From Planctomycetota bacterium (GTDB lineage Bacteria; Planctomycetota; Planctomycetia; Planctomycetales; Planctomycetaceae), in the NCBI GenBank assembly GCA_030836185.1, contig JAURQH010000031.1, positions 62,001 to 126,000 of the forward strand: DNA of 64,000 nt, read 5' to 3'. Numbering within the stretch: position 1 is the stretch's first letter; each line of letters starts with the position of its first letter. The notes under the pieces were generated by a model. The model had not been told where the DNA came from. It searched no databases and saw only the letters and a list, made by a program, of their open reading frames with translations. The position numbers were made by a program, and so were the translations under genes. Positions 34,752-38,834 of this stretch are shown here, in pieces.

Positions 34752-35768
34752 ATGTCACAGCCGACTCCCACACAATCTGAATCGCCACTTTCCTGGCAGG
34801 AAAAACGCTACCGCTGGGCCGCGATTCCCGGTTGGGGGCTTTCACTGATTTTGCACGCCCTGTTTCTGGTATTGATCAGTACACAATTGAAAAGCTGCGG
34901 CGGTGTGATTACGGGAACGGGGGAAGGGGAGTATCGATCTGTTGGTTTGGTGATGAAAGATTCTGACTCTCCCAATTTCAACGACAACACTCAACATAAC
35001 GATTCAGAAGTTGATCAGAAAAACGAAGTGACCGATGAAACCGAGGTTCTCGAAGTCCCCGAGAATCCACCAGTGGAAATGGCCCTTCCCGAGATGGGAA
35101 GCAACTTGTTAGGACCGGGAGCGTTAGCACCGGCTATCGGTCTTCCCAATCCGACACCCTCCAAAATTCAATCGGCGTCCTCTTCAATTCCTCTTCCTGC
35201 AGCGTTTGGTCAAGGAGATGGACCGGTTCGTTTTTTGGGAGCCATTGATGCCGGGAAAAACTTTGTCTACATCATTGACTGCTCAGGCAGCATGGGCGAT
35301 TACAACGCTCTCGATTATGCCAAGGCTGAGTTGTTGGCATCTCTGCAAGGTGTCAGTAACCGACAGAAGTTTCAGATCATCTTCTACAACGAAGAAATAC
35401 GCCGCTTTCAACTCCCAAATCAGGCTGTCGAACTTTATCCCGGAATCGACGTGAATCGGAATCGTGCCAAACGATTTATCGGGAGCGTCTCTCCCTCATT
35501 GGGAACAAAACATATGCCGGCATTGCTGGCAGCATTGAAATATGAGCCCGATGTAATCTTCTTTCTGACCGATGCCCGTGAGCCTGCCTTGAGTAAAGAT
35601 GGTTTGTTAAAGGTCAAAAAAGCAAATTACAACAGTGCCCGTGTTCATTGCATCGAGTTCGGGGTTGGTCACGAATTGCCGGGCGACAATTTCCTGAAAA
35701 GACTGGCGCGTCAAAATAAGGGCACGTACAGTTATCGCGATGTCACCAAGCTGGGAGGAAGTCGGTGA
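34752..35768 (+). CDS. VWA-domain protein with TonB-like membrane anchor
   Basis: A 338-residue protein. After a cytoplasmic N-terminus (1-25) comes one transmembrane helix, GWGLSLILHALFLVLI (about 27-43), containing Ser31-x3-His35, the spacing of the essential S-x3-H motif in the TonB/TolA anchor that contacts ExbB/ExbD. A periplasmic acidic, Pro-rich linker follows (about 60-145). The C-terminus is a VWA domain with a MIDAS-like motif (YIIDCSGSMG), a central FFLTDAREP, and later strands. The next genes encode a TPR-like exported protein, ExbB and two ExbDs on the same strand. An energised envelope device using a VWA head instead of the TonB C-domain is inferred. Confidence 0.85.
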   Translation: MSQPTPTQSESPLSWQEKRYRWAAIPGWGLSLILHALFLVLISTQLKSCGGVITGTGEGEYRSVGLVMKDSDSPNFNDNTQHNDSEVDQKNEVTDETEVLEVPENPPVEMALPEMGSNLLGPGALAPAIGLPNPTPSKIQSASSSIPLPAAFGQGDGPVRFLGAIDAGKNFVYIIDCSGSMGDYNALDYAKAELLASLQGVSNRQKFQIIFYNEEIRRFQLPNQAVELYPGIDVNRNRAKRFIGSVSPSLGTKHMPALLAALKYEPDVIFFLTDAREPALSKDGLLKVKKANYNSARVHCIEFGVGHELPGDNFLKRLARQNKGTYSYRDVTKLGGSR

Positions 35769-36832
35769 CGCGAATGAATCAAAGAATCTTGGTCTTTCTG
35801 GGTGTCTGTCTCTGTTTGACGGAGATCATGTCATCGGATGCTGCTGCACAAGGTTCGTCTTTGACACAGGCCGGGAATTACCCCGATCACATCATGATCC
35901 AGCCGAAATACAGCACCGGAAAGAAACGAATCCGCTGTCGAATTATTGATTACACCGGCGTTGTGGTGACCGTCCATTTGATGGAAGGGGACACTCGCAA
36001 AACCTACGCGACGAGCGAGGTGACCCGCGTGGAGACTCCGCAATCTGCACAACATCGTAAGGGCTTAACGCTCTTAGACGCGGGAGAAATTCCGCAAGCC
36101 GAAGAACAACTCCTGGAAGCTTACCGGCTCGATCCTCGGGAATGGGTGCAGCGAGAGATTCTCGCACATCTGGTCCGGGCGGCATTGCAGCGTGGTGATT
36201 ATGTCACGGCGGCCACTCGAATGGAGAAAATATTCTCCAGTGACGAACACACTCAACATCTGGAATTGTTGCCGGCGGTTTGGACTACCAAAGTTCTCAC
36301 TCCCAGTCAGATTCGCAACGGTGCTGAATTGCTGGTTTCGGATTCTGGCATTGCTCAGCTTGTGGGGGCTTCCATATTGCTCGAACAGCCCGGCTTTGAA
36401 GAGACGGCAAAGACTGCTTTGCTAACTGTTCAGACATCCGGTCATCGACGATTACAACCTTTGGCGGAGGCTCAATTGTGGCGACTGGAGTTTGCCAATA
36501 ACGAGTTTCCTGTTTACACCATCGATAAATGGAAGCGACATATCGAACGCCTGCCGACTGAATTGCGAGGCGGGCCGTATTTTCTCTTGGCCCGTGCGTA
36601 TCAATTCAAACTGTTGCGTGATGATGCCGCCTTGACTTATTTGCGGATTCCGGTGTTGTACGATCATGATCGATTGTTGGCGGCAGAAGCCTCTTTAGCG
36701 GCTGCCGATGTGTTACGGTCTGGTGGTCGCAATCAGGAATCTCTAACAATTTACCGAGAACTCGTTGCGAGGTATCAAGGAACGGAAGCCGCACGGAAAG
36801 CGGATGCCATCCTGAAGTCAATTGCCGAATAA
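35765..36832 (+). CDS. Exported TPR-like repeat protein of the VWA-ExbBD operon
   Basis: A 355-residue protein. GTG 35765 is chosen because GGGAGGA precedes it at good spacing and it overlaps the stop of the VWA gene (GTGA); ATG 35774 is the alternative. A signal peptide (MNQRILVFLGVCLCLTEI, cleavage near DAAAQ) precedes a small beta-rich section (CRIIDYTGVVVTVHLMEGDT). Helical repeats resembling TPRs follow (GLTLLDAGEIPQAEEQLLEA, ALQRGDYVTAATRMEKIF, and a C-terminal ILYRE-like unit, SLTIYRELVARYQGTEAARK). It may form the periplasmic partner of the VWA protein. That role is inferred from coupling only. Confidence 0.75.
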   Translation: MTRMNQRILVFLGVCLCLTEIMSSDAAAQGSSLTQAGNYPDHIMIQPKYSTGKKRIRCRIIDYTGVVVTVHLMEGDTRKTYATSEVTRVETPQSAQHRKGLTLLDAGEIPQAEEQLLEAYRLDPREWVQREILAHLVRAALQRGDYVTAATRMEKIFSSDEHTQHLELLPAVWTTKVLTPSQIRNGAELLVSDSGIAQLVGASILLEQPGFEETAKTALLTVQTSGHRRLQPLAEAQLWRLEFANNEFPVYTIDKWKRHIERLPTELRGGPYFLLARAYQFKLLRDDAALTYLRIPVLYDHDRLLAAEASLAAADVLRSGGRNQESLTIYRELVARYQGTEAARKADAILKSIAE

Positions 36833-36868
36833 CAAACCGCATACGCGGACTCACGAAGGATCGAATAC

Positions 36869-37708
36869 GTGTTGAATCAATTTTCTAAGAACAAACGAGG
36901 CGGCACTCGCAGGTCTTTATTCGTTCTGCTCTCGACGATGGTTTGCTTATCGGTCCCAGTACTCGCCTGGGCGCAAGATGGCGGTGGAGAAGAAACCGTT
37001 GTTGCACCCAAAGTCGATCTCCGTGAACTGGCGCTCGCGGGGGGATATGTGGGGATGATCATTGCCGGGATGAGTGTCATTCTGATTGCTTTGATCATCG
37101 AACATATGTTGACAATTCGCCGAGGTGCTTTGATGCCAAACGGTCTAGCTCAACAGGTTCACGGCATGATTGCTCAAAAACAGTTCAAGCAAGCCGAAGA
37201 GGTTTGTCGGCAGAATCCGAGTCTGCTGGGGGAGATCTTACAAGCGGGGCTCTCTGAAGTTGGCATTGACTACACGGCCATCGAAAAAGGAATGGAAGAC
37301 GCGAGCATCGAGCAGTCATCGCGGTTGTTACGGAAAATTGAATATCTGTCTGTGATTGGTTCCATTGCTCCGATGTTGGGTTTGTTGGGAACTGTCTGGG
37401 GGATGATTCTCGCGTTTCTGGAATTTGAATCGAAAGCGAATCCTCAAGTTTCAGAACTCGCTCCGGGGATTTACAAAGCGCTAGTGACAACATTAATGGG
37501 TTTGAGTGTCGCCGTGCCGGCAGTCGCCTCATTTGCGATCTTCAGGAATCGTGTTGATGGTCTGGTCGCAGAAGCCGCATTGCTGGCCGAACATGTCTTC
37601 GCGGATTACAAACGAGCCTTAGTCTCAGCTCGTCGAGGACAAAAGACATCCCGTCCTGCAGCCAGTCCCGGCATTCCTCCTGTCGTGCCTGAACGGGGAT
37701 CACGCTGA
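36869..37708 (+). CDS. MotA/TolQ/ExbB-family proton channel
   Basis: A 279-residue protein from GTG 36869. An N-terminal signal-like helix (LFVLLSTMVCLSVPVLAWAQ) is followed by three membrane helices: GGYVGMIIAGMSVILIALIIE, SVIGSIAPMLGLLGTVWGMI and LVTTLMGLSVAVPAVASFAI. The second and third carry the conserved ExbB/TolQ pattern (APMLGLLGTVWGM, and TT-x-G-x-x-VA-PA). It would form the pentameric stator channel with ExbD. The downstream ExbD gene overlaps the stop by one base (TGATG). The extra N-terminal signal segment occurs in the long ExbB subtype. Confidence 0.92.
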   Translation: MLNQFSKNKRGGTRRSLFVLLSTMVCLSVPVLAWAQDGGGEETVVAPKVDLRELALAGGYVGMIIAGMSVILIALIIEHMLTIRRGALMPNGLAQQVHGMIAQKQFKQAEEVCRQNPSLLGEILQAGLSEVGIDYTAIEKGMEDASIEQSSRLLRKIEYLSVIGSIAPMLGLLGTVWGMILAFLEFESKANPQVSELAPGIYKALVTTLMGLSVAVPAVASFAIFRNRVDGLVAEAALLAEHVFADYKRALVSARRGQKTSRPAASPGIPPVVPERGSR

Positions 37709-38136
37709 TGCGATTACCGGCTCGCAGCCGACAACTCGGCGTTACGGTCAATATTACGCCGCTGATTGATGTGATCTTTCTGCTGATCATTTTCTTTCTG
37801 GCGGCGAGTCACTTCGTGCGAAATGAGTCTCGCGACGAAGTCGCGTTGCCCGAAGCCGTAACCGGGGAAGACGAACAGAAGTCTTCAGCCAGCCGCTTGG
37901 TTGTCACGGTGATGGCCGATGGTCGGTACAAACAGGGTGGCACATTCCTCAGCTTGGATGAGATCGAACCTTTATTGTTTGACGGCATGGCCAAAGATGG
38001 TGAGAACTTTGAAGTTCGTATTCGCGGTGACAAAGCCGTTTTGTTTCGTGCGATTGAACCATTGATGGTGGAGTGTGCCCGAGCAGGAGTCACGCAAATC
38101 AATTTCGGAGCATTGCCGGGAGGATCGACTCCATGA
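37708..38136 (+). CDS. ExbD/TolR-family protein, first copy
   Basis: A 142-residue protein from the ATG in TGATG after the ExbB gene. One N-terminal membrane helix, NITPLIDVIFLLIIFFLAAS, contains the proton-relay Asp (residue 21), followed by a periplasmic domain of normal ExbD length. The family forms the rotor-like pair inside the ExbB pentamer. It overlaps the start of the second ExbD gene by 4 bases (ATGA). Two different ExbDs in one operon suggest a heterodimer or two alternative rotors. Confidence 0.92.
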   Translation: MRLPARSRQLGVTVNITPLIDVIFLLIIFFLAASHFVRNESRDEVALPEAVTGEDEQKSSASRLVVTVMADGRYKQGGTFLSLDEIEPLLFDGMAKDGENFEVRIRGDKAVLFRAIEPLMVECARAGVTQINFGALPGGSTP

Positions 38137-38612
38137 AAATTCCGAGTTTTACCCGGCACGATGAGCGTGACGAAGCGATGTCGATGACGCCGATGATCGA
38201 CGTTGTGTTCCTGTTATTGATCTTCTTTGTCTGTGCGTCTATCGGTCAACAGAAGGAACTTCTGTTATCGACTCCCATTTCGGGAGCCGGCGTGAAATCG
38301 GAGACACCCCCCGAGGATCCGTTACAGCCGGAACCGGACCGAGCCTACATCAAATTGATACGCATCGGTGATGAAACGGTGACCGATCTGAACGGCACAA
38401 TGATCGAAGAGCCGGGACGAGTGCGCGAGTTGTTAATTGGTCTGGCGACGGTGGCTCCCGATGTGCCGGTGGTGATTGACACGGCCGATGAAGTGCCTTT
38501 AGGAGATATGATCGCGTTGTACGATCTCTGTCGTTCGGTCGATTTCGAGACGATCAACTTCGCGATTGATCCCCCAGAGAATCGTCCGGTTAAGGCAAAG
38601 CCGAAACCATGA
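38133..38612 (+). CDS. ExbD/TolR-family protein, second copy
   Basis: A 159-residue protein. ATG 38133 overlaps the preceding stop (ATGA); an upstream in-frame ATG at 38073 is inside the first ExbD and less likely. The helix MSMTPMIDVVFLLLIFFVCAS contains the conserved Asp (residue 23). The periplasmic domain differs in sequence from the first copy. It is the last gene of the VWA-TPR-ExbB-ExbD-ExbD operon; a repeat-rich gap of about 800 bases follows. Confidence 0.92.
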   Translation: MKIPSFTRHDERDEAMSMTPMIDVVFLLLIFFVCASIGQQKELLLSTPISGAGVKSETPPEDPLQPEPDRAYIKLIRIGDETVTDLNGTMIEEPGRVRELLIGLATVAPDVPVVIDTADEVPLGDMIALYDLCRSVDFETINFAIDPPENRPVKAKPKP

Positions 38613-38699: not shown

Positions 38700-38834
38700 T
38701 CAAGAGTCCAAAACCCCGTACTCTTGAATTCGCTCTAACTCGTTGAATCATCGGCAACTTTCAAGAGTCTTCAAGAGTATGGGCCAGACACACACACTTC
38801 TCATACTCTTGACAATACCCTTGAATACTCTTGA
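38700..38834. repeat. TCAAGAGT direct/inverted repeat cluster with long hairpin
   Basis: TCAAGAGT occurs at 38700, 38761 and 38771, and its reverse complement ACTCTTGA at 38720, 38805 and 38827. The strongest pair is TCAAGAGTATG (38771-38781) against CATACTCTTGA (38802-38812): an 11-bp perfect stem with a 20-base loop. It lies downstream of the second ExbD gene. It could be a terminator region, a repetitive extragenic element or a set of protein-binding sites. Confidence 0.6.

Follow-up and report, generated by a model that had tools for sequence, protein, structure and literature searches.

The closest described relatives of the locus studied here are the vWA force transducers predicted in planctomycetes and the PVC group (PMC12204202, Mol Biol Evol 2025 msaf138). 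The class has been published as a prediction only, with no known phenotype. Its members have a Ser and a His in their transmembrane (TM) helix, their genes neighbour a TPR gene and two different tolR-like genes, AF3 models of related vWA-motor complexes show contact between the helix and ExbB, and an adhesin-like or gliding-type role has been suggested for them (PMC12204202). Cryo-EM has placed TonB Ser16 and His20 in contact with ExbB Ser34 and Trp38, in a network with Pro190, and TolA Ser18 and His22 in touch with TolQ Ser28 (PMC12215075).

We analysed a stretch of 64,000 nucleotides (the window) from a planctomycete draft genome. Among named organisms, those closest to it are Planctomycetaceae, Gimesia, Planctomicrobium, Schlesneria, and Rhodopirellula. 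The initial annotation of this stretch had proposed a proton-motive-force-driven vWA machine of the TonB/Tol type, which it did not know as a characterised system. The latter part no longer holds because the class is already described (PMC12204202). Our analysis goes beyond that work by counting how often residues are conserved, by describing what happens where the operon is split, and by contrasting the vWA system with how scarce TonB is in the family. The conservation of the Ser-x3-His pair and the co-occurrence with ExbB support the proposed type of machine. With a probability of about 0.72, we interpret the operon as a trans-envelope machine of the vWA force-transducer class that would be driven by the proton motive force and whose role would most likely be Tol-like. 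The ORFs at 34752-38612, all on the + strand, give the order vWA-TPR-ExbB-ExbD1-ExbD2. They confirm the five coupled genes of the initial annotation, together with overlaps at three of the four junctions: GTGA between vWA and TPR, TGATG between ExbB and ExbD1, and ATGA between ExbD1 and ExbD2. A 36-nt gap without overlap separates the TPR and ExbB genes. The features are as follows:

34752..35768, + strand: vWA force-transducer-like protein, 338 aa, with a TM helix at residues 27-49, a linker, and a vWA domain at ~158-338
34830..34898, + strand: TM helix of the vWA protein, residues 27-49, from the AF2 model
34842-34844, + strand: Ser31 of this helix
34854-34856, + strand: His35 of this helix
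34932..34958, + strand: motor-box-like conserved segment of the vWA protein, residues 61-69, FRxVG[IL]xx[KR]
35223..35765, + strand: vWA domain with MIDAS residues D176, S178, S180, T252, and D274, from the alignment, AF2, and Foldseek
35765..36832, + strand: periplasmic TPR protein, 355 aa, with a signal-like helix, a five-stranded beta domain (41-90), and a TPR-like solenoid (95-354)
36869..37708, + strand: ExbB/TolQ motor protein, 279 aa, with invariant S69, T175, T208, and P217
37708..38136, + strand: ExbD1 (ExbD/TolR-like), 142 aa, with Asp21
38133..38612, + strand: ExbD2 (ExbD/TolR-like), with Asp23; 159 aa with the ATG at 38133 as its start, whereas the mechanical ORF begins further upstream

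A promoter scan at the operon gave one weak match, below the number found in shuffles. Directly after the operon, positions 38700-38834 of the window (G000:C7 ~100700-100835) contain six copies of TCAAGAGT/ACTCTTGA in 135 bp. Allowing at most one mismatch, the pattern TCAAGAGTNTTCAAGAGT has 16 occurrences in the genome and none in the reversed control. Some of its copies are inverted pairs ~55 bp apart inside a longer shared stretch, and the repeat resembles a short interspersed inverted-repeat (REP/MITE-like) element.

The Pfam match of the first protein to a vWA domain is weak (PF13768, E 9e-5, under Pfam's own cut-off), and we therefore examined the fold by structure. The AlphaFold2 model, built from a 22-sequence alignment, shows the helix, a disordered linker (median length 111 residues across homologues), and a confident C-terminal domain. 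This domain matches solved vWA domains in Foldseek with E-values down to 1.5e-12; the matches include the inter-alpha-inhibitor heavy chain, CLCA1, and BatB, likewise by sequence. Hence, a vWA domain does stand in the place of the TonB C-domain, as initially suggested. The D-x-S-x-S site read there as MIDAS-like is D176-S178-S180, it is completed by T252 and D274, and all five residues are invariant. vWA domains often mediate adhesion. With such a complete and invariant metal site, the vWA head could be adhesin-like or of a gliding type and be moved by the motor (suggested for the class in PMC12204202), but its protein has an inner-membrane anchor, we saw no route by which the head could be secreted, and no gliding genes were noted near the operon, which makes this role very unlikely.

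The Ser31-x3-His35 pair noticed initially lies inside the helix, and its conservation is strong. In the alignment of 57 family homologues, these are the only invariant helix residues (57/57 each), the other positions being variable and hydrophobic. Outside the genus the homologues found by the family search are only ~32-48% identical to the protein of the window. In a wider set the pair is present in 106 of 109 distinct homologues, although the members of both sets are mutually related and do not count as independent trials. The three exceptions are two wrongly chosen long reading-frame starts (L048 and L080, which do carry the pair in the 57-homologue alignment) and one contig starting inside the gene (L237). 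Among 299 other ORFs whose N-terminus has a hydrophobic stretch, just 6 (2%) show the spacing; this comparison set includes ORFs that are possibly not genes. The named planctomycete loci agree with this conservation, and the pair is missing from L165 and L166, two more remote vWA relatives that have no motor nearby. The full SHLS motif of TonB and TolA (S-x3-H-x6-L-x3-S) is absent: solely the Ser and the His of its four residues are conserved, the Leu at +11 being found in 49 of 107 homologues and the Ser at +15 in 9 of 107, and the window has I42 and L46 at these positions. The helix contains no Asp. It is followed by the conserved segment 61-69 (R62 in 45/57, G65 in 54/57), which is disordered in the AF2 monomer model and lies where TonB and TolA carry a motor box (PMC12204202).

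The motor proteins are clearly recognisable. ExbB matches PF01618 (E 2.1e-29) and scores higher with TolQ than with ExbB models. Its T175, T208, and P217 align without gaps with T148, T181, and P190 of E. coli ExbB. The pore threonines T175 and T208 are conserved in 64 of 64 sequences, and S69 and P217, the equivalents of the Ser34 and Pro190 of ExbB, are also invariant. S69 corresponds to TolQ Ser28 if the alignment is gap-free (the match to the E. coli-type TolQ model pairs ExbB residue 64 with model position 23). By eye, other ExbBs of the source genome also have a Ser near this position, and S69 is therefore not specific to this motor. The equivalent of Trp38 is a small hydrophobic residue, I73 in the window and mostly Val elsewhere. 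The two ExbDs match PF02472 (E 9.3e-18 and 1.2e-13), and their TM Asp is invariant (D21 in 68/68, D23 in 53/53), in agreement with the initial description of two distinct ExbDs that each have this residue. They are told apart by profile and occur in the same order at every complete named planctomycete locus, which makes ExbD1 and ExbD2 look like distinct, old paralogues.

The co-occurrence of these genes was studied in 80 named planctomycete loci, of which 60 had at least 4.5 kb downstream of the vWA gene and were testable. The order vWA-TPR-ExbB-ExbD is found at 39 of the 60, with both ExbDs recognised in 35, and motor genes are missing at the others (vWA-TPR at 9/60, vWA alone at 12/60). Other families and classes also have the five-gene order, second and diverged copies of the operon were found (L173 and L174), and a full-length vWA match is rare outside the class. 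Among the 61 genomes of the family, 60 have a vWA match at E 0.001 and 57 at E 1e-25. In the 29 family genomes without an ExbB beside the vWA gene, 22 have one elsewhere, 44-64% identical to that of the window. The ExbBs of split operons and of the operons form one clade (49 rows, support 98/99) that does not include the remaining ExbBs of these genomes. The adjacency label changes 17 times on the ExbB tree, which makes adjacency by itself a poor indicator of linkage, and we also used clade membership. The ExbB located elsewhere is usually followed by ExbD; six orthologous ExbBs have no ExbD within ~1.4 kb (L103, L104, L108, L109, L113, L115). In split operons the TPR gene is beside the vWA gene in some cases and beside ExbB in others (L102, L107, L112, L120), and it therefore links the vWA and motor parts.

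These data bear on whether the vWA-TPR genes function separately from the motor genes and only share an operon with them. The 21 of 60 testable loci with vWA or vWA-TPR alone would fit this explanation, and so would the seven of the 29 genomes that lack an orthologous ExbB, including the single-contig genome G033. Against it, the Ser and His of the helix are invariant even where the genes are apart, most split-operon genomes keep the orthologous ExbB, and the TPR gene is linked to either side. We regard separate functions as improbable, and the vWA protein is not mostly found apart from ExbB/ExbD, a possibility that the initial annotation had raised against its own proposal.

The TPR protein has weak Pfam matches, and its match to TIGR02795 (E 1.1e-4) is far under the cut-off of that model. 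The AF2 model (mean pLDDT 89) shows the signal-like helix, the five-stranded beta domain, and the TPR-like solenoid; a fold search with it retrieved generic TPR proteins only. The C-terminal repeats match CpoB (6g5s, E 2.7e-8, profile positions 269-353). The N-terminal coiled-coil trimerisation domain of CpoB is absent, and the model has the beta domain there. The source genome has a second motor cluster, without vWA (L096, G000:C104:84000-94000), with a long TPR-like protein, a beta-domain-plus-TPR protein, ExbB, ExbD, and ExbD. The beta-plus-TPR protein, upstream of ExbB-ExbD-ExbD, resembles the TPR protein of the operon (profile comparison, E 5.9e-6, probability 85%). A third cluster (L098, G000:C7:192000-202000) encodes a single-helix protein of 305 aa without S-x3-H, ExbB, two ExbDs, and a 1191-aa protein with, by eye, an FHA-like beginning. 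A lone ExbB without an adjoining ExbD (L097, G000:C104:146000-156000) is divergent from a MoxR/ChlI-like AAA gene, the AAA assignment being by eye.

The source genome, a 98% complete draft, has no match to TonB_C (PF03544), to the receptor plug domain, or to TolB_N, and these absences are no proof because of its draft state. It also has no match to TonB_2 (PF13103), a weak control that matched in only 1 of 14 control genomes. Neither TolB nor Pal is encoded in the operon; two proteins with an OmpA domain are encoded elsewhere in the genome, one of which has, by eye, a lipobox-like signal. A motor-docked vWA protein might instead work through an outer-membrane channel in the import or export of large molecules, more like Ton than Tol. 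Its anchor motif is the same as that of TonB, and Ton-type work exists in the family, since TonB_C is found in 12 of its 61 genomes, albeit only in these. Yet no recurring transporter gene was found at the loci examined, and a Tol-like role is likelier because of the lack of receptor plugs in the source genome and because ExbB leans to TolQ and the TPR protein to CpoB; we consider Ton-like transport unlikely. A Tol/Ton-type motor with a vWA head is better supported than each of its rivals, namely import, adhesion or gliding, and unrelated co-transcription.

In such a machine, ExbB would form the usual pentamer in the inner membrane and enclose two ExbD helices, probably those of ExbD1 and ExbD2. 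The vWA helix would dock outside ExbB through Ser31 and His35, segment 61-69 would engage the periplasmic domains of ExbD, and the vWA head would reach the periplasm on its disordered linker and may there bind, through its metal site, an outer-membrane or cell-wall partner. The TPR protein, with its last, CpoB-like repeats, would act as an adaptor in the periplasm. Upkeep of the outer membrane, as in Tol, would be a likelier role of the machine than import, as in Ton. Several TonBs can share one ExbBD. The source genome has two orphan vWA paralogues, L009 (1462-2415) and L008 (928-2802, minus strand), in which S-x3-H can be read in a hydrophobic helix, with no motor gene within ~1.5 kb on either side; L008 has further domains before and after its vWA part. 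Most orphan vWA paralogues across the family also show the motif, and one motor may thus serve several vWA heads.

Planctomycetes possess an outer membrane. They often lack, as here, detectable TonB, TonB-dependent receptors, or TolB, and energy transfer to the outer membrane of such cells would be explained by a vWA transducer that is almost universal and has a motor of its own. The vWA machine may be the default trans-envelope force system of the lineage. As a tentative extension, for which we would give clearly less than even odds, it could be the standing force system of the family, in which a metal-dependent vWA grip replaces TolA-TolB-Pal in doing the work of Tol-Pal and the motor also serves the orphan vWA transducers. 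Neither TolQ nor ExbB nor TonB is mentioned in the main texts of essential-gene papers on Planctopirus limnophila and Verrucomicrobium spinosum. The conservation of S31, H35, the MIDAS, and the two ExbD Asp residues makes this prediction-only class directly testable in a tractable planctomycete.

The comparison with known systems places the operon as follows. It shares with Ton (ExbB-ExbD-TonB) the motor families and the Ser-x3-His anchor, but we rejected membership because the source genome lacks the TonB C-domain and the receptor plug. TPH-vWA, the second family of PMC12204202, also has a TM-anchored vWA protein beside a TolQ-like gene; it lacks ExbD genes and has a proton-binding Asp in the vWA helix, whereas the window has two ExbDs and no helix Asp, and this assignment was also rejected. 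Tol-Pal (TolQ-TolR-TolA-TolB-Pal-CpoB) is similar in its motor families, in the motif of its TM-anchored transducer, in the CpoB-like TPR repeats, and in having the nearest relative of the ExbB, TolQ. The operon differs from it by a vWA domain for the TolA C-domain, two TolR-like genes, a beta domain for the CpoB coiled coil, and the lack of TolB and Pal; canonical Tol-Pal was rejected for want of the TolA domain and TolB_N. Relative to the vWA force transducers of PMC12204202, the vWA gene is first in the window and downstream according to the text of that paper, the planctomycete family lacks the conserved Leu and Ser of SHLS, and many of its members have split operons. The operon is otherwise like the Tichowtungia-type members of this class: they have a single TM helix with Ser-x3-His (the figure of the paper and the window both have His35), a linker of ~100 residues, a C-terminal vWA domain, and, as gene neighbours, a TPR gene, a tolQ-like gene, and two tolR-like genes that differ from each other.
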